Positions 4,395 to 18,038 of a DNA stretch of 36,180 bases are shown here, one piece after another (the stretch's first letter is position 1; each line of letters begins with the position of its first letter). The DNA is taken from positions 1 to 36,180 of the forward strand of contig JAIPBL010000063.1 of NCBI GenBank assembly GCA_021739645.1, read 5' to 3'. Source of the stretch: Saprospiraceae bacterium. Its GTDB lineage: Bacteria > Bacteroidota > Bacteroidia > Chitinophagales > Saprospiraceae. A model generated the notes under the pieces. It saw only the letters and a list, made by a program, of their open reading frames with translations. It was not told where the DNA came from and did no database searches. Made by a program: the position numbers and the translations under genes.

Positions 4395-4396
4395 TG

Positions 4397-4910: not shown

Positions 4911-5372
4911 TTAACCTTCGTCATAGTTCTCTAGCTCCAATTGCTCTCCGATAGGGGAGGAAAAACTGTAAGCCAATAGGTCGTGAGCGGTGATGATGCC
5001 AACGAGTTGTCCATCGTCCACGATGGGCAGTGCATGAAACTTGTTGGCTAGAAAGATATCGGCAGCCAAGCCAACAGTGTCTTCGGCACTCAGTTGGAGC
5101 GGGTACTTCGTCATGATGTCCTCTGCCAGCAGGTGCTGGAACCGTGACTTCGTTTCCGAAGACCTCGTAGCCTCCACAGATAGCACGTATGCCACTTTGA
5201 AGAAATCCTCCCGGCTGATAATGCCGACAAGCTCACCGCTTTGCTTCGTGACGGGTACGTGATGAAAGCTGTTCCTTGAAAACAATTCCCGTACTTCGCC
5301 CAAGGTCGAATTCGGTTGAACGGTGACCGGGTTAGCGGTCATGATTTCTTGAACGGTGATATTCGGGTTCAT
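4911..5372 (-). CDS. Tandem CBS-domain protein
   Basis: Two CBS motifs fill the 153-residue protein (IMTANPVTVQPNSTLGEV, HHVPVTKQSGELVGIIS; IMTKYPLQLSAEDTVGL, HALPIVDDGQLVGIIT). The start at 5372 (MNPNITVQEIM) is chosen because CBS homology begins at once; an in-frame extension to 5456 would translate the upstream terminator hairpin. The gene lies 39 bp downstream of a strong terminator that follows the Hsp20 gene, so it depends on read-through or on its own promoter, which I could not identify. Adenine-nucleotide sensing is known for the family; the target here is unknown. Confidence 0.85.
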   Translation of the reverse strand: MNPNITVQEIMTANPVTVQPNSTLGEVRELFSRNSFHHVPVTKQSGELVGIISREDFFKVAYVLSVEATRSSETKSRFQHLLAEDIMTKYPLQLSAEDTVGLAADIFLANKFHALPIVDDGQLVGIITAHDLLAYSFSSPIGEQLELENYDEG

Positions 5373-5411
5373 CTTTGTTGTGTTTAGAAGGTGTATAAAA
5401 ATGTGCAGTGT

Positions 5412-5449
5412 AAAAAAAAACCGGAAGCCACCTTGCGGCCGGCCTCCGG
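5412..5449 (-). terminator. Rho-independent terminator after hsp20
   Basis: Read on the minus strand, the stem ccggaggcc / ggcttccgg (one wobble) is followed by nine T residues (complement of 5412-5420). It lies 42 bp past the stop of the Hsp20 gene at 5492-5947 and just before the CBS genes. Confidence 0.85.
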
Positions 5450-5491
5450 GATACACCTCTCACATTGAAGAATGAGTTTTTGTGCCGGTGG

Positions 5492-5947
5492 TCAAGAAAC
5501 TTTGACCACCTTGGCCGGTTCTTCTTTTTGAACTTTAACTTTTGGAACTTCAATTTTCAGGATACCGTCGTTGTACGTGGCCTTTATAGCCTCGTCTCTG
5601 ACGTTCTCTGGAAGCCAGAAGGAACGGCTGAATGCCTGATAATTGAACTCCTTGCGAGTGTAGCTATCGTCTTTTTCTTCCTTCTCTTCCTTGGTCTCGG
5701 CACTGATGCACAGATGCCCATCTTTTACCTCAACCTTGAAGTCGTCTTTTTTCATGCCGGGGGCAGCTACCTCCAGCTTGTATGCTTCCTTCGTCTCTTT
5801 GACGTTGACGGAGGGCGTCGTCATTTCAAAAGTGGGCAACCACCTTTTGTCAAAAAAGTCGTCGTCCCTTAAAAAATTCGAGGCCCAGTCCGGCATGTTC
5901 AATACAGGAAGCAATTCGTTTCGATTTTTCCATTTAATGATTGACAT
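5492..5947 (-). CDS. Small heat shock protein (Hsp20/alpha-crystallin)
   Basis: ATP-independent holdase chaperone that keeps unfolding proteins soluble; forms cytoplasmic oligomers. The start MSIIKWKNRNELLP at 5947 gives 151 aa, typical for the family. The alpha-crystallin domain spans about residues 45-140 (TPSVNVKETKEAYKLEVAAPG, then KEFNYQAFSRSFWLPE and the hallmark AxxxxGIL as ATYNDGILKIEVPK). A C-terminal I-x-V-like tail is present. Longer in-frame starts up to 6112 are rejected: the predicted transcription start is near 6104, after two TGAC-type operators. It ends at a strong terminator. The two upstream operators predict tight induction with the other island genes. Confidence 0.92.
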   Translation of the reverse strand: MSIIKWKNRNELLPVLNMPDWASNFLRDDDFFDKRWLPTFEMTTPSVNVKETKEAYKLEVAAPGMKKDDFKVEVKDGHLCISAETKEEKEEKDDSYTRKEFNYQAFSRSFWLPENVRDEAIKATYNDGILKIEVPKVKVQKEEPAKVVKVS

Positions 5948-6109: not shown

Positions 6110-6175
6110 CAAAAGTAAATTGGATGCCCTTGGCTTTAAATGACTTCTATCAATCGCCTAGTTGACTTATATCAA
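6110..6175 (-). promoter_or_regulatory. hsp20 promoter with tandem TGAC-N4-GTCA type operators
   Basis: On the minus strand a perfect Bacteroidota -7 element TACTTTTG occupies 6117-6110. Upstream are two palindromic sites: 6141-6152 (TGACTTCTATCA) and 6162-6175 (TTGACTTATATCAA). Their centres are 36.5 and 58.5 bp from the last G of the -7 element. If transcription starts about 6 nt further on, these are -42.5 and -64.5, class II and class I activator positions. The predicted leader is about 157 nt. Most of the 314-bp gene-free stretch 5948-6261 is this promoter and leader; I see no gene in it. Confidence 0.65.
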
Positions 6176-6261
6176 AAGCAATATTTCTTCTTATGATTTC
6201 AAATGACAGGGTCAGTTCTTTAACTCACCCTTAAAAGTGAAGGTGCGCTGGGAACTTAGCC

Positions 6262-6708
6262 TCAGCTCACCATGACCTGACGAGCCAGTTTGTCCAGCGG
6301 TGTTGCTTCTTTAAAAAAACTAATCCGGAGGACACCGTTTTCGCACTTGGCCTCCATGTGCTCGGCTTGGAAACCGTCAGCCAGCTTGAACTTTCGCTCA
6401 AACGAGTCCATTGAAAATTCTTCCATGATGCACTCCACGCCTGTTTTTTCCAAACGGTGCGGCTTTTCGCCCTTTACGATTAAAGTTCTGCCCTTGAGCA
6501 CTATTTCGAGGTCGTCCTTTGTAAATCCAGGCACGGAAACTTCCAGCACTACCTTCTCTTCTTGTTTAGAAACATTGGTTGGCGGCATTTCATGCCAAGG
6601 AATATCAAAAGGAGAACGGCCAAGAAAATGGCTAGAATCTATCAGCGGACTGTACCGCTCGCCCATCCAGTCGAAGGTGTGGCTGCGAAGATTTGGTCTC
6701 CATCTCAT
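6262..6708 (-). CDS. Small heat shock protein (Hsp20), second copy, divergent
   Basis: A second Hsp20-like holdase (148 aa from ATG 6708, MRWRPNL). The crystallin domain covers about residues 42-140: PPTNVSKQEEKVVLEVSVPG, TLIVKGEK, the FERKFKLADGF strand, and CENGVLRISFFK in place of the usual AxxxxGVL. It is clearly different from the 5492-5947 protein, so this is an old duplication or separate acquisition. An in-frame extension to 6888 is rejected because the operator and predicted start of transcription (about 6820) lie inside it. It is followed leftward by the first hsp20 promoter and preceded by the eRF1-like gene; each has its own operator, so they are separate transcription units of one regulon. 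Confidence 0.88.
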   Translation of the reverse strand: MRWRPNLRSHTFDWMGERYSPLIDSSHFLGRSPFDIPWHEMPPTNVSKQEEKVVLEVSVPGFTKDDLEIVLKGRTLIVKGEKPHRLEKTGVECIMEEFSMDSFERKFKLADGFQAEHMEAKCENGVLRISFFKEATPLDKLARQVMVS

Positions 6709-6825
6709 GATGCAAATATTTAGGTTTCGACATCCGGTGGCCATATTCCCCTGCATCTTCATCAGCTCCCACGCTTTGGCCGAAACAGGTGATTTAATGC
6801 TGCAAAGTTCCTTGGATTCAAAGCT

Positions 6826-6868
6826 CAAAGCATTGTTTCTTGTCAATCGGTTCTGGTGACTTTTGTCA
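6826..6868 (-). promoter_or_regulatory. Promoter/operator of second hsp20
   Basis: A perfect palindrome TGACTTTTGTCA (6857-6868) lies upstream of a weak -7 element ATGCTTTG (6833-6826, minus strand). The centre-to-G distance is 36.5 bp, identical to the other class II sites in this window. Predicted start near 6820, leader about 112 nt. The poor -7 element fits an activator-dependent promoter. Confidence 0.6.
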
Positions 6869-6894
6869 GCGAAGAAGGACGGAAACATCCTTTT

Positions 6895-7311
6895 TCAATT
6901 GGCCTCGAAAAAGCTTTTTACATAAGCTACCTTTTGATTTTCAGTCATGCTGTCTGCCGTTAGCACGGCCTTCAGGTCTGAATTGAAATGGTTTGGATCC
7001 GTTTTTATGGCACTGACCAACAAATCCTTTGCCTCGCCTGGTCCGAAGATGACCACCTCATCAGCATCCCGGACATTCTCGATGATTTTGGAGAAATAAC
7101 TCTTCTCCTCATTGCGCCGGCGATTTTCAAAAGTCTTCTCGGATACACCGGCCATGATGCCGCCCGCTTTTCCGCGGTTTTGCATTCCGCCCCTCGCTTT
7201 TGAAGTGTCCACGTCAGAATCTATTTTCCGGAACTGCTTCAACTCTCCGTCCAACAGTTCGATGAAATTGGCTTCCTTGTAGTCGAGCCAAATGCCTGTT
7301 TGCTTTTTCAT
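6895..7311 (-). CDS. eRF1/host-attachment-like protein
   Basis: A 138-residue protein starting MKKQTGIWLDYKEANFIELL at 7311. It has the layout of bacterial eRF1-domain-like proteins (BaeRF/host attachment group): an N-terminal strand with an Asp, a charged middle (RRRNEEKSYFSKIIENVRDA), then VVIFGPGEAKDLLVSAI, the GPG(E/X)AK-like motif of that fold, and a C-terminal helix. Such proteins are suspected to interact with stalled or dormant ribosomes, but no function is established for this one. An in-frame start at 7365 is rejected because the -7 element lies inside it. It has its own promoter with a TGACTTTTGTCA operator, so it belongs to the same regulon as the neighbouring Hsp20 genes. Confidence 0.55.
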   Translation of the reverse strand: MKKQTGIWLDYKEANFIELLDGELKQFRKIDSDVDTSKARGGMQNRGKAGGIMAGVSEKTFENRRRNEEKSYFSKIIENVRDADEVVIFGPGEAKDLLVSAIKTDPNHFNSDLKAVLTADSMTENQKVAYVKSFFEAN

Positions 7312-7334
7312 GACAAATTTATTTTGATGAAAAA

Positions 7335-7399
7335 CAAAGCTACCGAGCGCCTTTGCTAAAGGCAATGAGCCTAATTAAGCGATTGAATGACTTTTGTCA
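7335..7399 (-). promoter_or_regulatory. Promoter/operator of eRF1-like gene
   Basis: A perfect palindrome TGACTTTTGTCA (7388-7399) and a perfect -7 element TAGCTTTG (7342-7335, minus strand). Centre-to-G distance is 58.5 bp, the same as the distal site of the first hsp20 promoter. A degenerate copy (TGAGCCTAATTA, 7366-7377) falls exactly at the 36.5-bp position, so the layout may again be tandem. The leader would be only about 18 nt. Confidence 0.6.
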
Positions 7400-7450
7400 G
7401 GGTGACAAAACAGCCAATAGAAGACAGGATTGGGATTGGGAAAAGCGTGG

Positions 7451-8428
7451 TTATTTATCGATACTCGTAAGTGAATTCTTGTAAATGTCCTTTAACCGGA
7501 GGGTGTCGCCCTGCTCGTTTATCACCTCCAGGTCGTACCTGAAAACGACCTTCGTGCCAAGCGGGGCATAGTAGTAGATGCGCCAGGCATCCGCCTCTTT
7601 CGTACCAACGCAACCATTGGAGTAAGCTTTTCCGACAGATTTTGGGTTGGAAGTTGGGTGTATCATCTGCCCTGTGCGCTGACCGTTCAGTTTCGGTTCT
7701 ATCCACGGAATGAGCGGCATCCGGGTCTTTTTGTTGTCGTCCCGTTTAGTGATGTTGAACATGCGGCCGTCCACGGGGTCTCGAAAAAACGGGTCTTTGG
7801 AAATGCGGTCAATGGTACCTGTGCCAGTCCTCGTGCGCAGGTCGGTCACCCGGTCTGTTGCCAGCAAGTAGCGCTTTCGGTTCTGCCCGACCCGCACGGG
7901 GAAGGTGTGAATCGTGTCGCCGTTTTCAATGATGCGCAGCTTGAACTCAGGGATGTTGATGTCCAGCACCGTGTTCTCCATTTTCCGCAGCAGCTCACGG
8001 GCCTTGGTTTCATTCGGAATAAAAAACGTATCGCCCTCATGCATCACCACCAGCAGGCGGTTGTCGAAGTTGAAAATGCCCCGCTCCTTCAGGCGATAGT
8101 AGTCAGTGTTTTCAAGGCTGTCGATGAGCCAGGGGTTTGCCCGCACCAGCAGGTGCTCGGACACTGGATAGGGCGCCAGCGTGTCGTAATGCGCCACGAG
8201 CGTATCCAGAAAATCAAACAGGCAACTGATGGTAACATCGTAGGAAAGCACGACCGTATCGAAGGCGGGGAAGGTGGGAATTGTGTCTTTTGGTACGATG
8301 GTCTCCACTTTTTCAATATTGGATTGTGGGGGTTTTTCCGCCTTGTTTTTACAGGATAAAAAAAGTGCTGTGGAGACAAATATGGTAAGGGAGGCCGTTA
8401 AAAATATTTGCTTGGATTTCAGGTTCAT
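7451..8428 (-). CDS. L,D-transpeptidase lipoprotein (YkuD family)
   Basis: Envelope enzyme expected to form or edit 3-3 cross-links in peptidoglycan, or attach proteins to it. The start at 8428 (MNLKSKQIFL) gives 325 aa with a lipoprotein signal: hydrophobic ATGs 10-24 then the lipobox LSC (Cys26). The YkuD catalytic domain lies at about 163-300: His257 in MIHPTSNPKSVG and the nucleophile Cys273 in YSNGCVGT, followed by EADAWRIYYYAPLGTKV. The family motif is usually HGC; here it is NGC, which also occurs in active members. A longer frame to 8647 is rejected because it would only translate the adjacent palindromic repeat. A TGACTTTT half-site lies at the start codon but is not a full operator. 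Confidence 0.85.
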   Translation of the reverse strand: MNLKSKQIFLTASLTIFVSTALFLSCKNKAEKPPQSNIEKVETIVPKDTIPTFPAFDTVVLSYDVTISCLFDFLDTLVAHYDTLAPYPVSEHLLVRANPWLIDSLENTDYYRLKERGIFNFDNRLLVVMHEGDTFFIPNETKARELLRKMENTVLDINIPEFKLRIIENGDTIHTFPVRVGQNRKRYLLATDRVTDLRTRTGTGTIDRISKDPFFRDPVDGRMFNITKRDDNKKTRMPLIPWIEPKLNGQRTGQMIHPTSNPKSVGKAYSNGCVGTKEADAWRIYYYAPLGTKVVFRYDLEVINEQGDTLRLKDIYKNSLTSIDK

Positions 8429-8495
8429 GTCTTTGACTTTTGGGGACGAAATGTCCGTAACGTGAAATGGCACATGGTTCTGAAATTTGGAAAAT

Positions 8496-8702
8496 ATGCG
8501 AATTAGGGGTTGAAATGCGGCTAAACGTGCCGTTAGGCACGAAATATTGGTAGCAATATGCCCAAACACCGGTCTGCGTGCCGTTAGGTACGCTACTTCT
8601 CGTGGGGATTGTTGCGTACCTACGGCACGCAGCAGACCCATTTTCATTCGATTTCTACCGACATTTTGTGCCTAACGGCACATTTCAACCCCTAATTCGC
8701 AT
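8496..8702. repeat. Nested REP-like palindromic mosaic
   Basis: A perfect 22-bp outer inverted repeat (8496-8517 and 8681-8702) encloses several smaller palindromes built on the same core: 8526-8541 (cgtgccgttaggcacg), 8571-8593 against 8614-8638 (ggtctgcgtgccgttaggta and its near complement), and 8667-8682 (tgtgcctaacggcaca). The core gtgccgttaggcac appears in both orientations four times. This resembles composite REP/BIME elements mobilised by REP-associated tyrosine transposases; that link is inferred, and no such transposase is in the window. It fills the gap between two leftward genes. Confidence 0.8.
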
Positions 8703-8715
8703 AAAATGCCAAAAA

Positions 8716-10617
8716 TCATTCACAGTCCTTTAGCAGCTCGGCAGTAATCTTCATAAAATCACGCTCCGTTACCAGCCCTGCCAACTTGTTCCCATGCAAC
8801 ACGGGCAGGCAACCCACGTAGTTCTGTTTCAATAACTCCAATGCATCCACTGTTTTTGTTTGGGGTGAAACGGTGATGAGCTCCTTCTCCATAATTTCCC
8901 TCACGGGGGTATTCCCTCCGTCCTGATGGTTGCTATAATACAACATGACAAGCTTGCAGGTGACCAAGCCAGTCAGTTCGCCCAAGTTGTTCTCGACGGG
9001 CAGGTGGCGGATGTTTTTCCAATACATCATGTTGGCAGCAAGCTGAACGGGTTCGTCTTCGTTGACCGTGAACAATTCAGTTTTCATGATTTGTTCAATT
9101 GTCCAATATCGGTTCTTCCAATTGCCGGCCTCTGTTTTTTCGGGCAGGTCCCAGGTGTGTACGGGGGAGCCTTCCTGTTGTCGGCGCGACATGCCAGCTG
9201 TGATCGCTATAAGCGCATCGTCTTTGGTGGTTTCCTTGCTTAGTTTTTGAAAGGCATCCAGTGTCCATTGAGAGCCGGTTTTACCCGTTTTCACCCGCTC
9301 TTCGATGATGCCGAGCAGTCGGTCAGCGTCTGCCACGTTCACTGCCGCCTTGGCCAGTCCTTCCTTGGCGATGGGCAATAATTCCTTGAGAATCAGCTCA
9401 TCGGACCTGATTTGCTTGTCACTGCCGTTCCAATAAAAATTTGAGCCAAGACCCAATTGCGCAGCATACAGAAAGTTGCGCTTTGCGACATCGAAGTCCA
9501 TTCGCTGGTTGATCTTGGCGTATTCCGGCGGCATCCCTTTCATCAATCCTAGCCAAAAAGCGGCATTTGCTACCTCGTCAATGATGGTTGGGCCAGCCGG
9601 CAACGCCCGGTTTTCGATGCGTAGGTGGGGTTCCCCTTCGGTAATGCCGTAGCATGCCCGGTTCCAGTTGTAAACTGTTCCGTTGTGAATGCAGAGCTGG
9701 TGAAGGTTGGGCACACCACCTGCTTCCAGCACTTTCAATGCATCCTCCTGCCGGGTGGAAATAAATATGGGCTTGTGCCGGGTAGCGTTTTCCCGATAAA
9801 TATCAAGCACGGAGTCATTCACCCAGCGGGTGCCGAAATCCACCCTGGGTGACCGCTCACGGTAGTAGCTGCTCGTGCTGCGCACATCTGTTGACTGTTG
9901 AAAAAGGGCAATCCGGGTCTCCCGCCAAAGCCGCTTTCCAAGGAATATCGGCGAGTTGGTGGCACATGCCAACACTGGGGCAGTGATGGCTAGCGCCCAA
10001 TTGTAGGCAGCGGCGAAATCATCGGGCTGAAGTTGGTAGTGCACCTGAAAACTCGTGTTGCTGCTTTCGTAAAACGAATCTTGCGCCCGGGCAATCCATT
10101 GGTCTTTTCCCTCAATCCTAAACTCGAAACTATCCCCCCGCATCTCGTGGAGCGAGTCCAACAAGGATTGGTAACGGGGAGACGGGGTGATATTTTTTAT
10201 GTCCAGGTCGCTTTGGTGGAGTGTTGGCAAAATGCCGACAAGAATCAGGTGGGCGTCAAAAAGGTTGGCCGTTTTTTCCCCTTTTACCAATAGTCGCCAG
10301 AGGTTTCTTTCCAACTGAGAAAGGCAGTCACCGGTGAAAACGAGCGGTTCGAGGTTGATTTCCATATTGAACTGGGCCAATTCGGTCGTGAAGCGTTCGT
10401 CGCCTATTTTGCCCAAGATGTCCATCAGAACTGGAGCGGGACCCCAGCCTTTGCCGACCAGCGATACTTCCTGTTCGGCCCCAATGCGCTGTACGTCTGT
10501 TTCGATGACGCCATTGTTGATCATCATTTCCAGCGCTTTCAAATCATGCAACAAATGAGCAGTTGCCTCTAGGCGCTGGTTCTTGTCTTTGATGATGGCT
10601 ACCTTTTCAGCTCCCAT
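8716..10617 (-). CDS. GCS2-type carboxylate-amine ligase fused to a CBS pair
   Basis: A 633-residue two-part protein. Residues ~1-480 match the glutamate-cysteine ligase family 2 / carboxylate-amine ligase fold (ATP-grasp-like glutamine synthetase superfamily): the conserved IGAEQEVSLV near residue 46, FNMEINLEP, FQVHYQ, FISTRQED and the ENRALPAGPTIIDE stretch. Residues ~500-630 form two CBS motifs (IMKTELFTVNEDEPVQLA; IMEKELITVSPQTKTVDAL, VGCLPVLHGNKLAGLVT). The family makes gamma-glutamyl bonds; the actual substrate is unknown. The fusion suggests that activity is gated by adenine nucleotides. It lies downstream of trxA in the same direction, separated by a terminator. A near-consensus operator copy (10831-10842) lies further upstream. 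Confidence 0.8.
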   Translation of the reverse strand: MGAEKVAIIKDKNQRLEATAHLLHDLKALEMMINNGVIETDVQRIGAEQEVSLVGKGWGPAPVLMDILGKIGDERFTTELAQFNMEINLEPLVFTGDCLSQLERNLWRLLVKGEKTANLFDAHLILVGILPTLHQSDLDIKNITPSPRYQSLLDSLHEMRGDSFEFRIEGKDQWIARAQDSFYESSNTSFQVHYQLQPDDFAAAYNWALAITAPVLACATNSPIFLGKRLWRETRIALFQQSTDVRSTSSYYRERSPRVDFGTRWVNDSVLDIYRENATRHKPIFISTRQEDALKVLEAGGVPNLHQLCIHNGTVYNWNRACYGITEGEPHLRIENRALPAGPTIIDEVANAAFWLGLMKGMPPEYAKINQRMDFDVAKRNFLYAAQLGLGSNFYWNGSDKQIRSDELILKELLPIAKEGLAKAAVNVADADRLLGIIEERVKTGKTGSQWTLDAFQKLSKETTKDDALIAITAGMSRRQQEGSPVHTWDLPEKTEAGNWKNRYWTIEQIMKTELFTVNEDEPVQLAANMMYWKNIRHLPVENNLGELTGLVTCKLVMLYYSNHQDGGNTPVREIMEKELITVSPQTKTVDALELLKQNYVGCLPVLHGNKLAGLVTERDFMKITAELLKDCE

Positions 10618-10697
10618 AGTTCAAAGTGTTGTGGTGTGGAGGGTTCTATGGAGAAAAAAAGGAATGTTACGCCATATCATTGGATATAAGCGAACAC

Positions 10698-10735
10698 AAA
10701 AACACCCCCTTCACGATACGCTTTACGTGAAGGGG
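10698..10735 (-). terminator. Rho-independent terminator downstream of trxA
   Basis: Stem ccccttcacg (10706-10715) with cgtgaagggg (10726-10735), 10-nt loop, then on the minus strand a T-rich tail (complement of 10698-10702). It probably ends the trxA transcript. The remaining part of the 10618-10847 gap holds a near-operator at 10831-10842 and nothing gene-like. Confidence 0.75.
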
Positions 10736-10775
10736 AGAATAGTTTTTAACCAGTAATAGCTTATAACTTGTGTCC

Positions 10776-10842
10776 CAAATATGAGTCTTCGCAGGGCACT
10801 TATTAGGTGATGAATGGCAAGTGTTTTAGATGAGTTTTGTCA
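10776..10842 (-). promoter_or_regulatory. Possible operator and -7 element upstream of the GCS2-CBS gene
   Basis: TGAGTTTTGTCA (10831-10842) differs from the regulon palindrome at one base. On the minus strand a -7-like CATATTTG (10783-10776) lies 60.5 bp from its centre, two bases off the 58.5 seen elsewhere. A transcript from here would have to pass the terminator at 10698-10735 to reach the gene, so this is weak. Confidence 0.25.
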
Positions 10843-10847
10843 GTGGG

Positions 10848-11153
10848 CTAGGCATATTTTTCCAAAACGCCCTTCAGTTGTGGCCCGGAAATCATGCCCA
10901 CGTGCCGCCAAGTTTCTTTGCCTTTTTTGAACAGAACAAAAGTGGGTACTCCCTGTACTTGCATGCTCCCAGCGAAGGCGGAGTTGCGGTCAATGTCCAC
11001 TTTTACGATGGTCGCTTTCTCGCCCAGTTGCTTTTTTACGTCCTCCAGTACGGGAGCCATCATGCGGCAGGGGCCGCACCAGCTTGCGGTGAAATCAATG
11101 AGGACGGGCTTTTCGCCACTGAGCAATTCTTTGAAGCTTACTTTATTTTCCAT
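10848..11153 (-). CDS. trxA: Thioredoxin
   Basis: Cytoplasmic disulfide reductase, 101 aa, complete thioredoxin fold. The active site is WCGPC with Cys26 and Cys29, preceded by the buried Asp in VLIDFTASW, and followed by the cis-proline loop VQGVPTFVLF. It starts at ATG 11153, with a 254-bp divergent region before the coiled-coil gene. The region contains a regulon operator and -7 element (11272-11314), and, unusually, a terminator hairpin between the predicted transcription start and the start codon. It is probably one of several thioredoxins in the genome, here tied to the stress regulon. Confidence 0.93.
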   Translation of the reverse strand: MENKVSFKELLSGEKPVLIDFTASWCGPCRMMAPVLEDVKKQLGEKATIVKVDIDRNSAFAGSMQVQGVPTFVLFKKGKETWRHVGMISGPQLKGVLEKYA

Positions 11154-11194
11154 TTTTTATTGTTGTCAGGTTTGAGAGTCATTTTCAATGTCAT

Positions 11195-11222
11195 TAAAAA
11201 AGAGCGCCACAAAAGGCGCTCT
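11195..11222 (-). terminator. Intrinsic terminator inside the predicted trxA leader
   Basis: Perfect 8-bp stem agagcgcc (11201-11208) / ggcgctct (11215-11222) with 6-nt loop, followed on the minus strand by six T residues (complement of 11195-11200). It lies 42 bp upstream of the trxA start and about 45 nt after the predicted transcription start, so it could be an attenuator or the 3' end of a ~70-nt RNA. Confidence 0.65.
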
Positions 11223-11271
11223 GACAATATTTAATCACCCGAAATATGAATCTCTTAAATTAATTTCATTA

Positions 11272-11314
11272 CAAAAGAACGCCCTTTATGCCCCAAAGTT
11301 GGTGACTTAACTCA
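11272..11314 (-). promoter_or_regulatory. trxA promoter/operator
   Basis: A near-palindrome TGACTTAACTCA (11303-11314, one base from the consensus) and on the minus strand a -7 element TTCTTTTG (11279-11272, one base from TAnnTTTG). Centre-to-G distance is 36.5 bp, identical to three other promoters in the island. Predicted start near 11266. Confidence 0.5.
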
Positions 11315-11407
11315 CTTATTCCCATGATGTTCCTCAGTTCGTTTAGCCTTGTATTTGCTGCATTTTTGCAGTGATGAATCATATTTTTTCACAAAAATCA
11401 AATAGCC

Positions 11408-12019
11408 ATGACACTGCAAGAAGAATTAATGGATATCGGCAAAGAACGCCTCACGCAGATGAAAGTGTTATTGGATGAGCTGCAAGTGCAGATGGCACTT
11501 GGGAAAGCGGATGCCAAGGACATTTTTGACCGTGAACGCAAAAACTTTCTTCAGTTCGTTTCGGAAGAAAAGAACATTCTGCGCCGCACGGGGGAGACCG
11601 CCAGCAAGCATCGACAGACGCTGGTGGAGAAATGTGACACACTGAACGCACGGCTTGCCAAGGCTACCGCCGAAAACAAGCGCCAATACGATGTGCAAAA
11701 AAGGGAAACCCTTCATGCCATCTATGAGCTTGAACTGGCCATGAAAGAAGCCTACGGCGACGTTGGTATGGCGCTGCAAACCAAGCTCGATGCTTTCCGT
11801 GCGAAGTTGGACACTTACCGGATCAAGCTGGCGTTGGGCGAGTTTGAAGCTGAGTCTGAGTTGGAGCCATTGAAGCCAGAACTGGTCGAAGGGGTTGCCA
11901 TTATTCAGGAACGGCTGAAGAAAGAAGTGGGAGCTGGCGAGAAGATTGACGCTTTTTCCAATGAAATTTCCACTTCGTTTGACCACATGAAGAAGGCATT
12001 TGCTGACTTGCTTTCATAG
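11408..12019 (+). CDS. Coiled-coil protein of unknown function
   Basis: A 203-residue soluble protein, almost entirely charged helix, with heptad-like runs (for example KHRQTLVEKCDTLNARLAKA and ELELAMKEAYGDVGMALQ). No signal peptide, membrane segment or known catalytic motif is visible. It starts at ATG 11408 (MTLQEELMDIG) and ends before a 22-bp perfect palindrome that precedes the AarF kinase gene on the same strand. It is divergent from trxA and shares its promoter region; a -7-like TAGCCTTG (11344-11351) could serve it. I do not recognise a family. Position and composition suggest a stress-associated structural or chaperone-like role, which is only inference. Confidence 0.7.
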   Translation: MTLQEELMDIGKERLTQMKVLLDELQVQMALGKADAKDIFDRERKNFLQFVSEEKNILRRTGETASKHRQTLVEKCDTLNARLAKATAENKRQYDVQKRETLHAIYELELAMKEAYGDVGMALQTKLDAFRAKLDTYRIKLALGEFEAESELEPLKPELVEGVAIIQERLKKEVGAGEKIDAFSNEISTSFDHMKKAFADLLS

Positions 12020-12030
12020 GAATTATGATA

Positions 12031-12078
12031 TTGAGTGATTGGGATATTGGGATATGTCCCAATATCCCAATCACTCAA
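12031..12078. repeat. Perfect 22-bp palindrome after the coiled-coil gene
   Basis: Arms 12031-12052 and 12057-12078 are exact complements around a 4-nt loop. Each arm is built of related 7-9 bp units (gtgattggga, tattggga). It lies 12 bp after a stop codon and 19 bp before the next start, so a terminator or RNA-processing role is likely. Confidence 0.85.
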
Positions 12079-12097
12079 CTTCTAATTGCACCTCCAC

Positions 12098-13780
12098 ATG
12101 ACTGCCACGAACTCACATAAGCCTACCCTCATCGGGCGCTATGAAAAAGTCATCGGCGTACTGGTGAAGTATGGCTTTGCAGATGTGGTCACGCACCCGC
12201 CTTTTAGTCGTTTTGTTCCAAAATGGAAAAAGCTCATCCCGAAGCATGAAGGTGTGCCAGTGACTGAGTTTACCCGTTACGAGCTTATACGGATGGTCTG
12301 TGAAGAACTCGGGACTACCTTTATCAAGTTTGCCCAGATTGCCAGCAACCGACCCGACATTTTGCCGGAGGAGCTAATCGAAGAGTTGCAGAAATTCCAA
12401 GACCAGGCAATGCCCGTACCCGTTGAGAATGTACAGGGCACTCTGGAACAGGAGTTGGGCGAGAAGCTAGAAAAATCCTTTGAAAGCATTGATTTTCAGC
12501 CTATTGCATCTGCCTCTATGGCACAGGTGCACCGGGCTGTATTGGTTGGTAGAAAGGAGGTGGTGCTGAAAGTGCAGCGCCCCGGCATCGAAGATACGGT
12601 GGCGTTGGACATTCAAATCCTCAAAAGCTTGGCCCGACTCGTGGAGTCCCGTTTTCCTCAGTTTGATGCCTACCAGCCCATGGAGTTGGTGAAAATGTTT
12701 GAAACCAGCATCCGCAAGGAACTTGACTTTACGATGGAGGCAGCCAATATGCGGCGCTTCGAGGAGCAGTTCAAGGGCAATCCCGATATTTATGTACCGA
12801 CCGTCTATCCTGAGTTCAGTACCGAAAAAGTGCTGTGCATGGAGTATATCGATGGTCTCAAATGCACCGACCTTGTTGCCCTCGAAGGCATCGGAATGAC
12901 GGGTGCAGAGCTTGCTTTCAAGGGTATCAACCTTTACTTCGAGCAGGTGTTCGACCACGGCTTTTTCCATGCCGACCCCCACCCCGGCAATATCTTCGTG
13001 CTGCGTGACCAACGGGTCTGCTTCATTGACTACGGCATGATGGGCACGGTGATGGAGGGCGACCGGGAGATGCTGGCCGACTTGTTGTTGGCGGTACATG
13101 ACCACGATGTGGATGGACTGAAAACTGCCCTGCTTCGTTTTTCTTGGGACGAGGCAAAAATTGACCATACCAACCTGGAGTACGACATCAACGAGTTTTT
13201 TCAAAACTACTCAAATATTGGCTTGGAGGAAATTAACTCCAACGAAGTGATGGCTGCCCTCAACTCGCTGTTTTTTGAGTACAAAATCAAGGTGCCCTCT
13301 AACCTGCTGCTGCTGCTCAAAGCCCTCGTTATCATTGAGGGAGTGGGCCTGATGCTCGACCCCAAGTACAATATCATCGAGAACATCCACCCGTTCGTAG
13401 TGAGGCTTTTGCGAAGAAAATACAGCCCTGCCAAGCTTTCCAAAAAAATGGTCAAGACGTTTGGTGACCTCACCAAATTGGCGACTTCGCTGCCAGAGGA
13501 TATAGAAGATATTATCGGAAAATTGAAGCAAGGGAAGTTGCATATCGAGTTTGAGCACCGGGGCCTTGCACCTTTGAACCATGCGATGGAAGCGGCCTCA
13601 AAGCGTATCTCTTTTGCCGTCGTGCTAGGGTCGCTCATCCTTGGTTCTTCCTTGTTGGTAATTGCTGACGTGCCGCCTCATATCAAGAACGTGCCGGCTT
13701 TGGGTGTCTTCGGTTTTGTGATTGCTGGTATTTTCGGACTGCGATGGCTGGCTTCGATATGGAAACAGGGGAAGTTTTGA
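12098..13780 (+). CDS. AarF/UbiB/ABC1 family atypical kinase
   Basis: Membrane-associated atypical kinase/ATPase of the UbiB (ABC1/ADCK) family, known for supporting quinone synthesis or lipid homeostasis. With ATG 12098 (MTATNSHKPT) the protein has 560 aa, usual for the family. Visible marks: the KxGQ-like segment as FIKFAQIASNRPDILP, the alanine-rich loop SASMAQVHRA, the lysine in VVLKVQRPGIE, the catalytic HADPHPGNI and the metal-binding FIDYGMMG, and two hydrophobic helices at the C-terminus (about 510-555). A TTG 12 bp upstream is possible but unneeded. It is followed by a palindrome and a convergent response-regulator gene. Its place in a probable low-oxygen island would fit respiratory quinone upkeep. 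Confidence 0.9.
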   Translation: MTATNSHKPTLIGRYEKVIGVLVKYGFADVVTHPPFSRFVPKWKKLIPKHEGVPVTEFTRYELIRMVCEELGTTFIKFAQIASNRPDILPEELIEELQKFQDQAMPVPVENVQGTLEQELGEKLEKSFESIDFQPIASASMAQVHRAVLVGRKEVVLKVQRPGIEDTVALDIQILKSLARLVESRFPQFDAYQPMELVKMFETSIRKELDFTMEAANMRRFEEQFKGNPDIYVPTVYPEFSTEKVLCMEYIDGLKCTDLVALEGIGMTGAELAFKGINLYFEQVFDHGFFHADPHPGNIFVLRDQRVCFIDYGMMGTVMEGDREMLADLLLAVHDHDVDGLKTALLRFSWDEAKIDHTNLEYDINEFFQNYSNIGLEEINSNEVMAALNSLFFEYKIKVPSNLLLLLKALVIIEGVGLMLDPKYNIIENIHPFVVRLLRRKYSPAKLSKKMVKTFGDLTKLATSLPEDIEDIIGKLKQGKLHIEFEHRGLAPLNHAMEAASKRISFAVVLGSLILGSSLLVIADVPPHIKNVPALGVFGFVIAGIFGLRWLASIWKQGKF

Positions 13781-13790
13781 GGAAGGTATG

Positions 13791-13823
13791 AGGTATGGAG
13801 GCATGAGGTATGCCTCCATACCT
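13791..13823. terminator. Palindrome between convergent genes
   Basis: Perfect 14-bp arms 13791-13804 and 13810-13823 (aggtatggaggcat and complement), 5-nt loop. It lies in the 44-bp gap between the AarF gene and the convergent regulator gene, ending 1 bp from the latter's stop codon. The flanks repeat the unit gaggtatg. Likely two-way terminator. Confidence 0.75.
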
Positions 13824-13824
13824 C

Positions 13825-14874
13825 CTAAGTCGGCAGGCTTTCCAGTTTTTTCTTGTTCAAAATACGGATAGCACCATCCTTGATTTCGATGAACCCATCT
13901 TCCTTGAATTCGGTGAGTGTGCGTATGACGCTTTCCTTCGCCGTTCCGACAATATGCGCCAGGTCTTCCCGAAGAATTTGAATATCTTCTTTGCCTTCCT
14001 TTGAGTAGCGGTCGTGGAGCAGCAGTACGGCTTCAGCCACCCGTTTGCGCACGGAGTTATAGGCGAGTTGCAGCAGTTGGGATTCTTTCTCTGCCACGTT
14101 GTCGGCCAGCATTTTGATGAGGCGGCTGGCTACGTCCCGGTTGGCGTAGAGGAGTTTAAGGAAGTCCTCCTTTGGAATTAGGCTGGCCGTTGTGTCTTCG
14201 AGTGCAGCGGCTGAAAAGCTGTACTGCTCGTTTTTGATGAGGGCGGTGTAGCCGATGAATTCGCCAGCGTTGCGTATGTTGATGATATACTCTTTGCCGA
14301 TGTCGTTGGTTTTGTAGATTTTGACCTGGCCTTTGCCAATGAAGTACAAGTAACGTGGGGTGTCGCCTTCTTCGAACAAGGTGTCCCGTTTTCTGTATTC
14401 TTTGGTGCGTTTGTCGAGGGAGAGTTTTTTCAAATCCTCGTATCCCTTTGCTTCATTGATGAAGCTGATAAGCCCTTCCTCGGTGCGGTTGAACTTGCGC
14501 AGCCGTTCGCTTTTTCTCAGGCGGGTTTCAAGTACGGCAAGCAGTTCGTCTTTATAAAACGGCTTGGTTACATAGTCGTCGGCACCGAGGTTCATGCCCC
14601 TGCGGAAGTCTTCTTTTTCGGTTTTGGCGGTGAGGAAAACAAAGGGGATGTCGGAGGTTTCTGGTCGTTTGCTCAGGATGTTGAGCACACCGAATCCGTC
14701 GAGCTTGGGCATCATTACGTCGCAGAGGACGAGATCGGGGTGCTCTCTCATGGCGAGTTCTACGCCTATCGTGCCGTCTTCGGCTGCTAACACCTGATAG
14801 CCGGAAATTTCCAGTATTTCCTGAAGGTTTTCACGAACTTCCAAGTTGTCTTCAATGATGAGGATTTTTCTCAT
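13825..14874 (-). CDS. Response regulator: receiver + cNMP-binding fold + Crp/Fnr HTH
   Basis: A 349-residue DNA-binding regulator. Residues 1-120 form a complete receiver (acidic pair Glu8-Asp9, phosphoacceptor Asp52 in LVLCDVMMP, Thr82, Lys104). Residues ~150-265 are a cNMP-binding beta-roll, but the phosphate-binding Arg of cAMP-responsive members is not seen (YSFSAAALED). Residues ~275-340 are an HTH_Crp whose recognition helix TAKESVIRTL keeps Glu314 and Arg318, the pair that reads the TGA core in Crp and FNR. No FNR-type cysteine cluster is present, so the signal probably enters by phosphorylation. It starts 2 bp after the kinase gene and is surely its partner. It is my candidate for the activator of the TGAC-N4-GTCA sites in this window. 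Confidence 0.9.
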   Translation of the reverse strand: MRKILIIEDNLEVRENLQEILEISGYQVLAAEDGTIGVELAMREHPDLVLCDVMMPKLDGFGVLNILSKRPETSDIPFVFLTAKTEKEDFRRGMNLGADDYVTKPFYKDELLAVLETRLRKSERLRKFNRTEEGLISFINEAKGYEDLKKLSLDKRTKEYRKRDTLFEEGDTPRYLYFIGKGQVKIYKTNDIGKEYIINIRNAGEFIGYTALIKNEQYSFSAAALEDTTASLIPKEDFLKLLYANRDVASRLIKMLADNVAEKESQLLQLAYNSVRKRVAEAVLLLHDRYSKEGKEDIQILREDLAHIVGTAKESVIRTLTEFKEDGFIEIKDGAIRILNKKKLESLPT

Positions 14875-14876
14875 GG

Positions 14877-16196
14877 TTATTCAATTTTGCTTTTGTTGAG
14901 TGGGATGTTTACGCTAAAAACACTGCCATGGCTGGGTTTGCTACTAAAAGAAATATCGCCACCCAATAAATTCAAGTAGCGTTTTACAATATTCAAACCT
15001 AGGCCAGTTCCTTGAATATTTTCAACATTATTTGCCCTGAAAAACCGCTGGAACATGTACGGCTGGTCTTCTTCAGGTATGCCAATGCCTTGATCTTCCA
15101 CTTCGATATAAAGCACTTCGTCAATTACCCTTAACCTGCAAAAAATGGGCTTGCCTTGGTTGGAATATTTGCTAGCATTGGATATCAAGTTGTAAATGAT
15201 GTTTTTCAATATTTGCTTGTCCAGAAACACTTTTGCGTTGCAGTTTTCGTGTTCCTGAATGATGTGCTGACCTGGCTTTAGCAGTCCTTGCATTTCGTCC
15301 TCCACCTCGTCACAAAACGCTTTAAGTTTAAAATTCACGGCTTGGGTTTGCACCATGTTCTCCTCCAGCTTACTCAAAGACAGAAAATCGTTCAGGATAC
15401 TCGTCAGTGTCCCCACCGCTGTTTTGATGCGCTGGAGGTGCCTGCTTCTTTTCTGTTGGTGCTCCTCACCACCTGTATAGGCTTCGGCGAGGTCAGCCGA
15501 AGACAGCACGGTGCTGAGCGGCGTACGGAACTCGTGAGAGGCCATGCTCACAAATCTGGACTTAAGTTCGTTTAACTGCTTTTCTTTTTTTAGCGCATTG
15601 CGCAATTCTTCTTCGCTTTTGCGTAGCGCAGCCTCCGCTGCCCGCCGTTCCTCGGCCTCCCTTACCAGTTGCTGGTTCACGCTCAAGAGCCTATTGACAG
15701 CTTCTGAAAGTTCCTCGGTGCGCTGGTTCACTTTTAGTTCAAGTCGGTCGTTTTGGGACTCTAGGTCTTCGTTCAGTTTCCGGATTTCAGCTTCTGCCTC
15801 TTTCATTGCCGAGAGGTCGTGGAGAATACCTGTGAAGACTCGTCGGTCATCGAGCATGGTTTCACTTACTGCCAAACGGAGCGGCATTTCAGTACCGTCC
15901 TTGCGAAGCCCAATCACCTCCCGCCCAATGCCAATGATACGGGGCTGGCGAGTCTCAATGTAGCGGTTCAAATACCCGTCATGTTGATGCCTGTAAGGAT
16001 TAGGCATGAGCATTGAAATATTATTGCCTAAAACTTCGGAAGCGTCATAGCCAAAAAGTTGCTCTGCTGCAGGGTTCATCTGCTCAACAATACCACGTTC
16101 GTCGATAGTGAAAATGGCATCAATGGCCGTCTTGAATATTGCTTCCAAGTACGCAGCCATTTCCTCCTTGCTCTTGTTTGGCGATTTCTCCTTCAA
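14877..16196 (-). CDS. Cytoplasmic PAS-domain sensor histidine kinase (FixL-like)
   Basis: A 439-residue kinase without membrane segments. A PAS domain at ~15-130 resembles FixL (LMPNPYRHQHDGYLNRY then IIGIGRE), followed by a long coiled coil (~135-210), HisKA with the phosphoacceptor His221 (ASHEFRTPLS), and HATPase_c with N box (NLISNASKYS), G1 (EDQGIGIP) and G2 (GTGLGLNIVK). In heme FixL the residue just before IIGIGR is, from memory, the heme-ligating His; here it is Arg86, so heme and oxygen binding are doubtful. It is the first gene of an operon with the Crp-type response regulator and is divergent from the CBS-usp operon, sharing a 255-bp intergenic region that holds a perfect regulon palindrome. 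Confidence 0.92.
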   Translation of the reverse strand: MKEKSPNKSKEEMAAYLEAIFKTAIDAIFTIDERGIVEQMNPAAEQLFGYDASEVLGNNISMLMPNPYRHQHDGYLNRYIETRQPRIIGIGREVIGLRKDGTEMPLRLAVSETMLDDRRVFTGILHDLSAMKEAEAEIRKLNEDLESQNDRLELKVNQRTEELSEAVNRLLSVNQQLVREAEERRAAEAALRKSEEELRNALKKEKQLNELKSRFVSMASHEFRTPLSTVLSSADLAEAYTGGEEHQQKRSRHLQRIKTAVGTLTSILNDFLSLSKLEENMVQTQAVNFKLKAFCDEVEDEMQGLLKPGQHIIQEHENCNAKVFLDKQILKNIIYNLISNASKYSNQGKPIFCRLRVIDEVLYIEVEDQGIGIPEEDQPYMFQRFFRANNVENIQGTGLGLNIVKRYLNLLGGDISFSSKPSHGSVFSVNIPLNKSKIE

Positions 16197-16321
16197 TGCG
16201 GTGGTTGTTTAAATGCAAAGGTGTTGATTTTCAATGGATTAACAGTAAATGAAAACATTCAACGCCACAAAGTACCGAAGATGGTCATCCCATCCAAATG
16301 CATTTAATCACGAAAAGGGGG

Positions 16322-16364
16322 TGACAAAAGTCATCGCGCACCGTTGCTACCTGCCAGAACTTTG
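16322..16364 (+). promoter_or_regulatory. Promoter/operator of the CBS-usp operon
   Basis: A perfect palindrome TGACAAAAGTCA (16322-16333) lies upstream of a plus-strand -7 element GAACTTTG (16357-16364, one base from TAnnTTTG). Centre-to-G distance is 36.5 bp, as at three other promoters here. Predicted start near 16370, leader about 82 nt. The same site lies about 126 bp upstream of the histidine kinase start and could also act leftward. The rest of the 16197-16451 gap shows no gene. Confidence 0.6.
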
Positions 16365-16451: not shown

Positions 16452-16907
16452 ATGAACGTCTTAGCACCAATCTCAACAATCATGACGGCCAAGTTGCACA
16501 CCGTCAATCCAGATGACAGCTTGATGCAGGTCAAGGAAATCTTTGACCAGCACAAGATACACCACATTCCTGTAGTTCGCTATAAGCATATTGAGGGAAT
16601 TGTTAGTAAAACGGACTTTCTGCATTTTCTTCGGGGGTTCAAAAGCAACGAAATGGACAAGTTCATTGATGAAACACGCCTGCGTTCTTGGAAGGCCGAA
16701 AAAATCATGACCAAAGGCCTCGCCAAAGTGGAAAGCAGTGACCCCATCCGCACGGCATTGGAGGTGTTTCTCGTCAACCGTTTTCATGCTATTCCAGTCG
16801 TTGACAATGATGAACTGGTAGGCATCATAACCACCTTTGACGTCATAAAAGCCATTGAGGATGAACCAATCCCACTTGAAAATTACAAGAAGGCGAAAGC
16901 CGTTTAA
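16452..16907 (+). CDS. Tandem CBS-domain protein
   Basis: A 151-residue stand-alone CBS pair (IMTAKLHTVNPDDSLMQV, HHIPVVRYKHIEGIVS; IMTKGLAKVESSDPIRTAL, HAIPVVDNDELVGIIT), an adenine-nucleotide sensor module. It is the paralogue closest in layout to the protein at 4397-4843, sharing the first-CBS/30-residue linker/second-CBS plan. It is first in a two-gene operon with the universal stress protein, 21 bp apart, behind a perfect regulon palindrome. Co-transcription of CBS and Usp proteins is a known feature of hypoxia/dormancy regulons. Its partner protein is unknown. Confidence 0.88.
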   Translation: MNVLAPISTIMTAKLHTVNPDDSLMQVKEIFDQHKIHHIPVVRYKHIEGIVSKTDFLHFLRGFKSNEMDKFIDETRLRSWKAEKIMTKGLAKVESSDPIRTALEVFLVNRFHAIPVVDNDELVGIITTFDVIKAIEDEPIPLENYKKAKAV

Positions 16908-16928: not shown

Positions 16929-18038
16929 ATGACTACGATTCAAGTCCTTGGCATAGACGGGAGCGTTCAGACCCGACAACTTCGAGCTAACCTGATTGAA
17001 GCACTTGCTTCTTTGGGGATCAAGGCAGTCGTGGAAAACGTGTCCGGCATGGACAAACTGATGAAATACCACATCAATGGCATACCCGCTCTCGTAGTGG
17101 ATGGTACGGTGGTGTTACAGAAAATGGTTCCGCCTGCCGAGGACTTGAAGATTTTGCTTAATGCCTTTGTTGAAGGGGCTTTCAAACAGTTTGCCATGAA
17201 AAACATCATCGTCCCAACCGATTTTTCGCCAGCTGCAAAAGGTGCTTTTCAGTTTGCCCTCGATCTTGCCGAGCTGCAAGGTGGGAAAGTGAAGGCGGTA
17301 CATATCTACCATCCTGAGTTTGACCCTGAGAGCAATTGGCTCAACAACAGTTTTTTGGATGGTGTTAGCTTCGCCAAAGAGCGGCTTGATACTTTCGTAA
17401 AAGAGGAATTAGCAGCGGCAGGTGCTGGCCAAGTAGCCACGGAGGTGGAGGTGGAGCAAGAGGTCATCACTGGTTTTGCAGTGGATGAAATTTTGGAACA
17501 GTCTCGCTGCAAGGATATTGACCTAATGGTGATGGGCAGTACAGGTGAGCGTGGCTTTTTGGAGAAAATGTTCGGCAGTGTTTCCACCAATGTTACCCAA
17601 AGAGCCGAGTGCCCAGTGATGTTAGTGCCGCAGGGCGTCCAGTTCCACGGGTTCAAACACATCATGTACGCCAGCAATTATGAGGCTGCAGAACGCCCAA
17701 CCCTCCATAAACTGGTGGACGTGGCCAATACCTTCCACGCAAATATCCACTTCGTGCACGTGGCGGAGGAGGGTGATTCAAAAACCTATCAGGAAGTCGA
17801 AAGCAGACTTTTCAATGTGCTTTTCAATGGCAACGAACCATCGTTTGCCTTCAGCCTCACCAAAATTGAAGGGAATTCAGTGGTAGATGGCCTGAACGAC
17901 TACGCCATCAAGTATAATATTGACCTCGTGGTGATGGTGTCGCCGCACCGCAATTTTTGGGAGCAGCTCTTCCACAAAAGTGTGACCAAGGCCATGACCC
18001 TGAACACCAAAATACCGATACTCGTACTGCACGAATAA
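16929..18038 (+). CDS. Universal stress protein, tandem Usp with N-terminal redox-dead thioredoxin-like domain
   Basis: A 369-residue three-part protein. Residues 1-~82 match the thioredoxin_3 (small redox-protein) fold: IQVLGIDGSVQ, then KLMKYHINGIPALVVDGTVV with its cis-Pro, but the CxxC site is replaced by DGSVQ and no cysteine is left there. Residues ~90-240 are a Usp domain starting MKNIIVPTDFSPAAK with an intact nucleotide motif G-x2-G-x9-G-S (GSTGERGFLEKMFGS). Residues ~245-369 are a second Usp domain whose nucleotide motif is lost (VSPHRNFWEQLFHKS). So one ATP site should remain. It is second in the operon behind the CBS gene under a regulon operator. ATG 17196 would start a plain Usp, but the fused frame is continuous and starts 21 bp after the CBS gene. 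Confidence 0.88.
   Translation: MTTIQVLGIDGSVQTRQLRANLIEALASLGIKAVVENVSGMDKLMKYHINGIPALVVDGTVVLQKMVPPAEDLKILLNAFVEGAFKQFAMKNIIVPTDFSPAAKGAFQFALDLAELQGGKVKAVHIYHPEFDPESNWLNNSFLDGVSFAKERLDTFVKEELAAAGAGQVATEVEVEQEVITGFAVDEILEQSRCKDIDLMVMGSTGERGFLEKMFGSVSTNVTQRAECPVMLVPQGVQFHGFKHIMYASNYEAAERPTLHKLVDVANTFHANIHFVHVAEEGDSKTYQEVESRLFNVLFNGNEPSFAFSLTKIEGNSVVDGLNDYAIKYNIDLVVMVSPHRNFWEQLFHKSVTKAMTLNTKIPILVLHE

Follow-up and report, generated by a model that had tools for sequence, protein, structure and literature searches.

The closest described systems to the locus reported here are the FixL-FixJ-FixK2 cascade of Bradyrhizobium and other rhizobia, in which FixJ joins a receiver to a LuxR-type helix-turn-helix (HTH), and the DosR/DevR dormancy regulon of actinobacteria, a two-component system with a haem sensor, a LuxR-type output (DosR) and a target list rich in Hsp20, universal stress protein (Usp) and CBS genes. 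Among genes lowered in B. diazoefficiens fixK2 mutants and carrying a putative FixK2 box, the excerpt of PMC9104804 names Hsp20, universal stress, host attachment, 'translational machinery' and cytochrome c genes. Predicted alphaproteobacterial lists contain FixL, Hsp20 and a CBS protein in what we read as their FixK part, and glutamyl-tRNA reductase and UspA in their FNR part (excerpt of PMC2908626). In Burkholderia cenocepacia, the low-oxygen-activated (lxa) locus, which groups six Usp genes with one for a heat shock protein, is tied to low oxygen (excerpt of PMC6127331), and CRP/FNR homologs of other Saprospiraceae are treated as MalR-like in an excerpt of PMC8510549. Here we analyse a whole contig of a Saprospiraceae bacterium (JAIPBL010000063.1, 36,180 bases, hereafter the window; contig C67 of the 147 in the 6.16 Mb genome G000), in which TGAC-N4-GTCA palindromes stand before stress genes at set distances from -7 promoter elements. 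We propose, with a probability of roughly 0.7, that a low-oxygen FixL-like kinase and RR-Crp, a fused FixJ/FixK-type regulator, act on these palindromes as the sites of a stress regulon. No described regulon of this type was found among the matches listed in the open-licence literature.

Palindromes and promoter phasing in the window and its genome

TAnnTTTG is the -7 element of the Bacteroidota primary promoter, and phase is given here as the distance in bp from the palindrome centre to the last G of TTTG. The original prediction had named six palindromes, four spaced at 36.5 bp and two at 58.5 bp. All six, and all six spacings, are present in the sequence, the second site spanning 6163-6174 and not 6162-6175. 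The sites and promoter elements are as follows.

6141-6152: site TGACTTCTATCA, proximal member of a tandem pair, 36.5 bp to the -7 element
6163-6174: site TGACTTATATCA, distal member of the pair, 58.5 bp to the -7 element and 22 bp from the proximal site
6110-6117, minus strand: -7 element TACTTTTG of the first hsp20, common to sites 6141 and 6163
6857-6868: site TGACTTTTGTCA, 36.5 bp to ATGCTTTG and 59.5 bp to GAACTTTG
6826-6833, minus strand: weak -7 candidate ATGCTTTG of the second hsp20, 36.5 bp from site 6857
6803-6810, minus strand: alternative -7 element GAACTTTG of the second hsp20, the same octamer as before CBS-Usp, at 59.5 bp
7388-7399: site TGACTTTTGTCA, 58.5 bp to TAGCTTTG, with a TCAT half-site 22 bp closer
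7335-7342, minus strand: -7 element TAGCTTTG of the eRF-like gene
11303-11314: site TGACTTAACTCA (TGAGTTAAGTCA on the minus strand), 36.5 bp to the trxA element (minus) and 59.5 bp to that of the divergent 11408 gene (plus)
11272-11279, minus strand: -7 element TTCTTTTG of trxA
11361-11368, plus strand: -7-like element CATTTTTG of the 11408 gene
16322-16333: site TGACAAAAGTCA, common to the divergent CBS-Usp and kinase-regulator promoters
16357-16364, plus strand: -7 element GAACTTTG of the CBS-Usp promoter, 36.5 bp from site 16322
16268-16275, minus strand: -7-like element GTACTTTG of the kinase/RR-Crp promoter, 59.5 bp from site 16322

The genes read from these promoters are the predicted targets.

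5492-5947, minus strand: Hsp20 (a), predicted target; Pfam match on a longer frame, ATG start read from the sequence
6262-6708, minus strand: Hsp20 (b), predicted target; Pfam match on a longer frame
6895-7311, minus strand: 138-amino-acid (aa) eRF1-like protein of uncertain family, predicted target; weak eRF1_2 match
10848-11153, minus strand: thioredoxin (trxA), predicted target; WCGPC in the translation, Pfam not run in this frame
11408-12019, plus strand: 203-aa protein, probable target; no Pfam or NCBIfam match
16452-16907, plus strand: protein with two CBS domains, predicted target; Pfam
16929-18038, plus strand: thioredoxin-like and universal stress protein, predicted target, in line with the CBS gene; Pfam

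The 36.5 bp phase is held by sites 6141, 6857, 11303 and 16322 (plus strand) and the 58.5 bp phase by 6163 and 7388. The spacings of 59.5 bp, from 16322 to the kinase gene, from 11303 to the 11408 gene and from 6857 to a second TTTG, go beyond the original prediction. With a start assumed 6 nt past TTTG, site centres fall at about -42.5 (36.5 bp) and -64.5 (58.5 bp); class II Crp/Fnr activators bind a site centred near -41.5 of an active start. Two of the five -7 octamers (TACTTTTG, ATGCTTTG, TAGCTTTG, TTCTTTTG and GAACTTTG) are perfect TAnnTTTG.

Chance in the window was estimated from 1000 dinucleotide shuffles (100 for the bare word with up to two mismatches). Exact palindromes number three against a shuffle mean of 0.42, and 8 of the 1000 shuffles reach three. 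When sites with at most one mismatch are required to have TTTG at the 36.5 phase, the window contains four against 0.20 per shuffle and no shuffle of the 1000 reaches four, in keeping with the earlier view that the spacing is hard to explain by chance. At 58.5 or 59.5 the figures are five and 0.41, with 0/1000 shuffles reaching five. The bare palindrome, two mismatches being allowed, is barely more frequent than in the shuffles (161 against a mean of 138.9, reached by 5/100 shuffles), and the signal is therefore carried by the phase.

Genome-wide, the phase was sought by pattern searches over the contigs, in which the 36.5 bp spacing corresponds to gap 27; the gap tallies of these listings, for exact and degenerate patterns and for the reversed control across genomes, were counted by eye. 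Exact TGAC-N4-GTCA followed by TTTG gave 58 matches over 31 gaps (reversed control, 28). The scan of the genome for the spaced motif bears the prediction out, in that the 36.5 spacing holds 10 of the 58 and the remaining 48 are scattered over 30 gaps. The degenerate pattern TGAY-N4-RTCA with TAnnTTTG gave 33 matches against 5 in the reversed control: 7 at 36.5, 8 at 37.5, 4 at 58.5, 1 at 59.5, and the remaining 13 spread over 27 further gaps. Since 36.5 and 37.5 are both used, the spacing is tight but not single-valued. Some matches of the 37.5 peak lie inside genes, and this second peak may reflect flexible spacing or another Crp/Fnr protein.

On-phase sites also lie preferentially outside open reading frames (ORFs; ATG-started, at least 130 aa), in 8/9 cases against 6/22 off-phase; two of the nine are in the window, and the count leaves out a tenth on-phase match (C124) and later off-phase matches. 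The ninth site falls where the second hsp20 frame extends further upstream. Beyond the window, phased sites in intergenic positions precede norCB (an exact site), a small cytochrome c gene (C132) and feoA, and tandem intergenic sites at 59.5 and 36.5 precede the gene of a CBM48 protein. A homogentisate-dioxygenase-like gene has a phased site upstream, but its frame can extend over it, and the site of a second cytochrome c gene (C10) has an imperfect -7 element, with two mismatches in all. The genome lists are thus impure, several matches lying inside genes or before unrelated genes. A protein of about 117 aa without a Pfam match has a phased site at G000:C15:3537, as does a similar-looking protein in locus L062 (18673); it is perhaps a conserved unknown member of the regulon.

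The RR-Crp regulator and its FixL-like kinase

Two genes standing in line within 13825-16196 encode the proposed regulator and its kinase. The original prediction had included neither these proteins nor the site facing their operon nor the tandem-site design.

13825-14874, minus strand: RR-Crp, with receiver, CNMP-binding-like and HTH_Crp domains (Pfam), the proposed DNA-binding regulator
14877-16196, minus strand: PAS histidine kinase with a FixL-like haem-PAS domain; TTG start at 16196, or a later ATG giving 427 aa

In RR-Crp, Pfam families PF13545 and PF00027 score above their cut-offs. Across an alignment of 72 rows (70 homologs and the window copy twice), the phospho-accepting aspartate D52 and K104 are each kept in 72 rows, and 71 rows retain the E, and likewise 71 the R, of the recognition helix. 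CRP contacts cyclic AMP (cAMP) through E72, R82 and R123. These contacts are not kept: E72 is replaced by Y in 61 rows or F in 8, position 82 is mixed (R in 5) and R123 is N in 54. With these residues gone and the receiver complete, a reading as cAMP-CRP was rejected. The HTH_Crp domain with its E..R helix and the CNMP-like domain place RR-Crp in the Crp/Fnr superfamily, but its CNMP-HTH_Crp output sets it apart from FixJ and its complete receiver from the single-piece FixK/FNR proteins; against the FixK model NF050806 it scores 78 bits where the cut-off is 300. It has no N-terminal cysteine cluster, and alone among the five Crp/Fnr proteins compared in this genome it bears the helix GTAKESVIR. 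Elsewhere in the genome (G000:C101, L058), an HTH_Crp_2 match contains one TAA inside the alignment. This looks like an alignment edge effect, as an intact 232-aa frame covers the gene.

The kinase PAS domain finds FixL in seven of its eight best PDB sequences (E down to 1.2e-28); it is 48% identical to the FixL PAS of S. meliloti and 41% identical to that of B. japonicum. H72 is invariant in 25/25 aligned PAS domains and R92 is kept in 90% or more; we take these residues to be the proximal haem histidine (BjFixL H200) and the distal arginine (R220). The FixL motif IIG(I/T)GR is present in 41/50 kinase rows, comprising the window and 49 RR-Crp neighbours, some nearly identical, and the histidine is kept in all 41. 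Nine rows lack it: by eye, a receiver-like stretch takes its place in Pontibacter L094-L096, L098 and L106, another sequence stands there in L110 and L134, and L080 and L086 are cut. Against the NCBIfam FixL equivalog NF041777 the window kinase scores 159 bits (cut-off 850), which makes it a relative and not a rhizobial FixL.

A kinase ORF lies within 300 bp of RR-Crp in 49/52 loci. Among 20 additional Bacteroidia loci, 18 have a kinase homolog immediately upstream (one of them cut by a contig end), but the FixL pattern stands beside RR-Crp in only one, from the same family; the regulator is thus broadly kept and the sensor varies. In L245, the adjacent kinase does not match the FixL haem-PAS motif, but a second kinase (382 aa) encoded upstream of the RR-Crp operon contains it.

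These features suggest the following mechanism. At low oxygen, most likely, the kinase would autophosphorylate through its FixL-type haem PAS and pass the phosphate to the receiver of RR-Crp. Phosphorylated RR-Crp would then bind TGAC-N4-GTCA as a dimer through its Crp-type HTH, making the palindromes its putative binding sites. From about -42.5 (class II), and often also from about -64.5 (class I, two helical turns upstream), it would recruit the Bacteroidota RNA polymerase to TAnnTTTG-type promoters. The predicted targets are protein-protective and low-oxygen genes, namely Hsp20, thioredoxin, CBS, Usp and eRF1-like genes, and in this lineage the regulator's own operon. The sites, their phasing and recurrence in relatives, the domain make-up and the linkage are observed directly; haem binding and oxygen sensing, phosphotransfer, direct binding by RR-Crp, activation rather than repression, and the start sites are what we infer from them.

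Phased sites and putative target genes in relatives

The named relatives of RR-Crp belong to metagenome-assembled genomes of Saprospirales/Saprospiraceae, with identity up to 97%. The phase test covered 52 loci with a full or partial RR-Crp homolog. Among exact sites, TTTG occurs 17 times at the 36.5 gap, 10 times at 59.5 and at most 5 times at any other gap (gaps 5 to 89). With near-duplicates removed, 596 sites with at most one mismatch show 29 TTTG at 36.5, 10 at 37.5, 15 at 58.5 and 12 at 59.5, while other gaps hold 5.0 on average and never more than 12. No 4-mer is as frequent as TTTG at the 36.5 gap (29, against 11 for the runner-up), and the first T of TA is present in 66% of 21 sites, a set in which the A was a selection rule. 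Phase peaks are thus present in both the genome and its relatives, but to call the phasing invariant and exact was slightly too strong, 36.5 and 37.5 both being used. The spacings 36.5, 37.5, 58.5 and 59.5 are the phased set used below.

The layouts of the window recur as well. Tandem pairs 22 or 23 bp apart are found in L062, L073, L093, L099, L101, L102 and L104, and in L062 an Hsp20 gene is preceded by a pair with both spacings of the window's first hsp20. Among 24 far sites, a TCAT half-site often occupies the place of the near site (T 62%, A 70%, T 75%). A site like 11303 (one mismatch) has both phases in L062 and L065, and 36.5 and 58.5 in L068. The eRF-like homolog in L101 also has a perfect phased site.

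Gene types were tallied over 73 loci including the window, relatedness not being removed. A phased site lies upstream of Hsp20 in 5/12 cases, CBS in 14/42, the eRF-like gene in 2/5, 11408-like genes in 3/5, thioredoxin in 1/3, the 633-aa CBS protein in 1/2 and Usp in 7/62. For kinases of any kind the count is 15/75, for RR-Crp 2/71 and for other genes 25/666, and for six types of window gene that were not predicted as targets it is 0/16. When the window and seven loci whose RR-Crp is at least 80% identical are set aside, target-class genes still have a phased site in 22/103 cases (mean of the five off-phase gap sets that served as control, 0.6), other genes in 23/593 (off-phase mean 1.8) and kinases and RR-Crp in 11/138 (off-phase mean 1.4). 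The bias towards stress genes predicted from the window is thus seen in its relatives, and with the phase peaks and the intergenic placing of on-phase sites it supports a stress regulon of Crp/Fnr type. Other genes near RR-Crp are enriched too, given 23/593 against 1.8, and those with phased sites include HemA in Pontibacter and HemN and RIC elsewhere.

The regulator's own operon was counted separately. A phased site lies within 350 bases upstream in 16/70 RR-Crp operons, against 0, 0, 0, 0 and 4 for the five off-phase gap sets; the count omits L065, which has a site but was lost from the gene set, and two operons whose upstream sequence was too short. In operons with RR-Crp identity of at least 80% the count is 7/8 (window included), and an exact site stands at the same place as 16322 in 7/8 of these loci. 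In L089 and L093, no kinase precedes RR-Crp and the phased site is directly upstream of RR-Crp itself. When ten sequences of the divergent kinase/CBS region were aligned, 12/12 site columns were invariant against 27/229 others, partly by choice, as the ten were picked for an exact site and a kinase-side TTTG. Both -7 elements and the near TGAT half-site are well kept in the same alignment. The cluster's regulator probably controls its own operon in this lineage; self-regulation across all RR-Crp operons was rejected on the unselected count of 16/70.

Also part of the stress cluster (3627-5456 and 8716-10617) are a gene of the VIT1 family, two further CBS genes and the gene of the 633-aa protein, which ends in CBS domains. 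VIT1 genes had a phased site upstream in 0/2 cases over the 73 loci. The 6895-7311 product had no PDB match and its sole domain hint is eRF1 domain 2 (E 0.12); a firm name was rejected on that match alone and the gene is kept as eRF1-like. At 8527-8681, three copies of GTGCCGTTAGG(C/T)AC form an inverted-repeat element of about 155 bp upstream of a YkuD gene. The GTGCCGTTAGG 14-mer has 42 genome copies against 1 for a control, often as an outer pair about 138 bp apart, and the repeat is a dispersed palindromic (REP/MITE-like) element.

Competing readings and comparison with known systems

Several observations weigh against RR-Crp as the reader of these sites at low oxygen. Operons with more distant RR-Crp seldom carry a phased site (5/21 at 65-80% identity and 4/41 below 65%, 9/62 together). 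Self-regulation is therefore not general, and the link between word and protein weakens with distance. Some genome targets, such as norCB, may belong to another regulator. Outside the Saprospirales the sensor part of the kinase mostly differs, so that oxygen is only a possible input there. The phased word, finally, is not exclusive to genomes with RR-Crp, and other Crp/Fnr proteins can therefore read it. The C61 protein of this genome (helix SREVVTR) also keeps E and R and is a possible reader as well.

It is rather unlikely that RR-Crp regulates these genes while its kinase senses nitric oxide (NO), carbon monoxide (CO) or redox, or carries its haem-like PAS as a relic, an account that differs from ours only in the signal. 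Haem PAS domains can bind NO and CO, and both RIC iron-sulphur repair as a target in a relative and norCB with its phased site point to NO. The kept proximal histidine (25/25) and distal arginine (90% or more), however, speak against it, and the phased sites of HemN and HemA in relatives are consistent with low oxygen.

That the sites are bound mainly by another Crp/Fnr protein, an iron-sulphur (Fe-S) FNR or an NO-responsive one such as C80 or C61, with RR-Crp sharing or skipping them, is likewise unlikely. This possibility was weighed in 296 Bacteroidia genomes, of which 151 have an RR-Crp match (E at most 1e-40), six of them weak. The exact phased pattern with TAnnTTTG gave 198 matches in 115/296 genomes (reversed control, 9): 134 in the 145 genomes with a strong RR-Crp and 62 in the 145 without a match. 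Matches per genome are 0.92 with a strong RR-Crp, 0.33 in the six weak cases and 0.43 without, uncorrected for genome size. Exclusive assignment of the word to RR-Crp was rejected, since the rate in genomes lacking a match is still about half as high. Ten genomes that lack RR-Crp were chosen for having at least two sites; their best Crp/Fnr matches bear the helix GTATE(T/S)xIR in 10/10 cases and N-terminal cysteines in 8/10, so that FNR-type proteins with the same helix are likely to stand behind the sites there. The exact phased site of norCB in this genome and the scarcity of sites before distant RR-Crp operons also favour another Crp/Fnr protein. On the other side, 16/70 RR-Crp operons have a phased site against 0 to 4 off-phase. 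In this genome, the C80 protein bears cysteines and adjoins a frame that looks by eye like a hemerythrin domain, but its helix differs (TTANAIR), and two Crp-like proteins with SRQTVT lack the E..R pair and for that reason are not favoured as the regulator. In L227, a Crp/Fnr gene whose product has N-terminal cysteines lies 3743 to 4623 from the RR-Crp start; it has tandem phased sites and adjoins a ScdA/RIC-like gene (ScdA_N match) with an exact phased site; cross-talk of RR-Crp and a cysteine-bearing Crp/Fnr regulator is possible there. It is extremely improbable that the palindromes are chance occurrences or sites of an unrelated palindrome-binding factor, for although TGAC-N4-GTCA with up to two mismatches is near its chance frequency in the window, the phase statistics in window, genome and relatives contradict this.

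Taken together, we prefer the FixL-like kinase acting through RR-Crp. A wider generalisation, to which we would give not quite even odds, is that across Bacteroidia the same word and geometry (about -42.5/-64.5) would be read either by an Fe-S FNR or by a phosphorylated receiver-Crp fusion (about half, 151/296 genomes) with exchangeable sensor kinases, FixL-like haem-PAS kinases serving in the Saprospirales. If so, a three-step oxygen cascade would have collapsed to two proteins with a swappable sensor. The analysis yields a candidate regulator, a DNA word, a promoter geometry and a target list for low-oxygen survival in a sizeable group of environmental Bacteroidota, and because the phase of the sites is fixed, targets should be predictable in unculturable genomes. 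It would also link rhizobial FixL biology to another phylum, in which a receiver-Crp fusion could shorten the oxygen cascade.

Like DosR/DevR, the window system is two-component, with a putative haem sensor and a set rich in Hsp20, Usp and CBS genes, but RR-Crp ends in HTH_Crp and not in a LuxR-type output. Its helix GTAKESVIR nearly equals the GTATE(T/S)xIR of the cysteine-bearing FNR-type regulators of Bacteroidia, from which it differs in having a complete receiver and no N-terminal cysteine cluster. Like the lxa locus, as excerpted in PMC6127331, it has a cluster of Usp and heat shock genes, which in lxa is tied to low oxygen. With FixL-FixJ-FixK2 it shares a FixL-type haem-PAS kinase and a Crp/Fnr output, and the FixK2 box TTGA/C-N6-T/GCAA covers the window word (T)TGAC-N4-GTCA(A) (excerpt of PMC9104804). 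Because its content resembles alphaproteobacterial low-oxygen Crp/Fnr regulons, the system can be read as a FixL-like sensor driving a one-piece FixJ/FixK equivalent. Unlike the FixL-FixJ-FixK2 cascade, it fuses receiver and Crp output with no separate FixJ or FixK step, and it uses a TAnnTTTG promoter with sites at about -42.5 and -64.5. By analogy, the system would work like FixL-FixJ-FixK, yet RR-Crp is a member of neither FixJ nor FixK.

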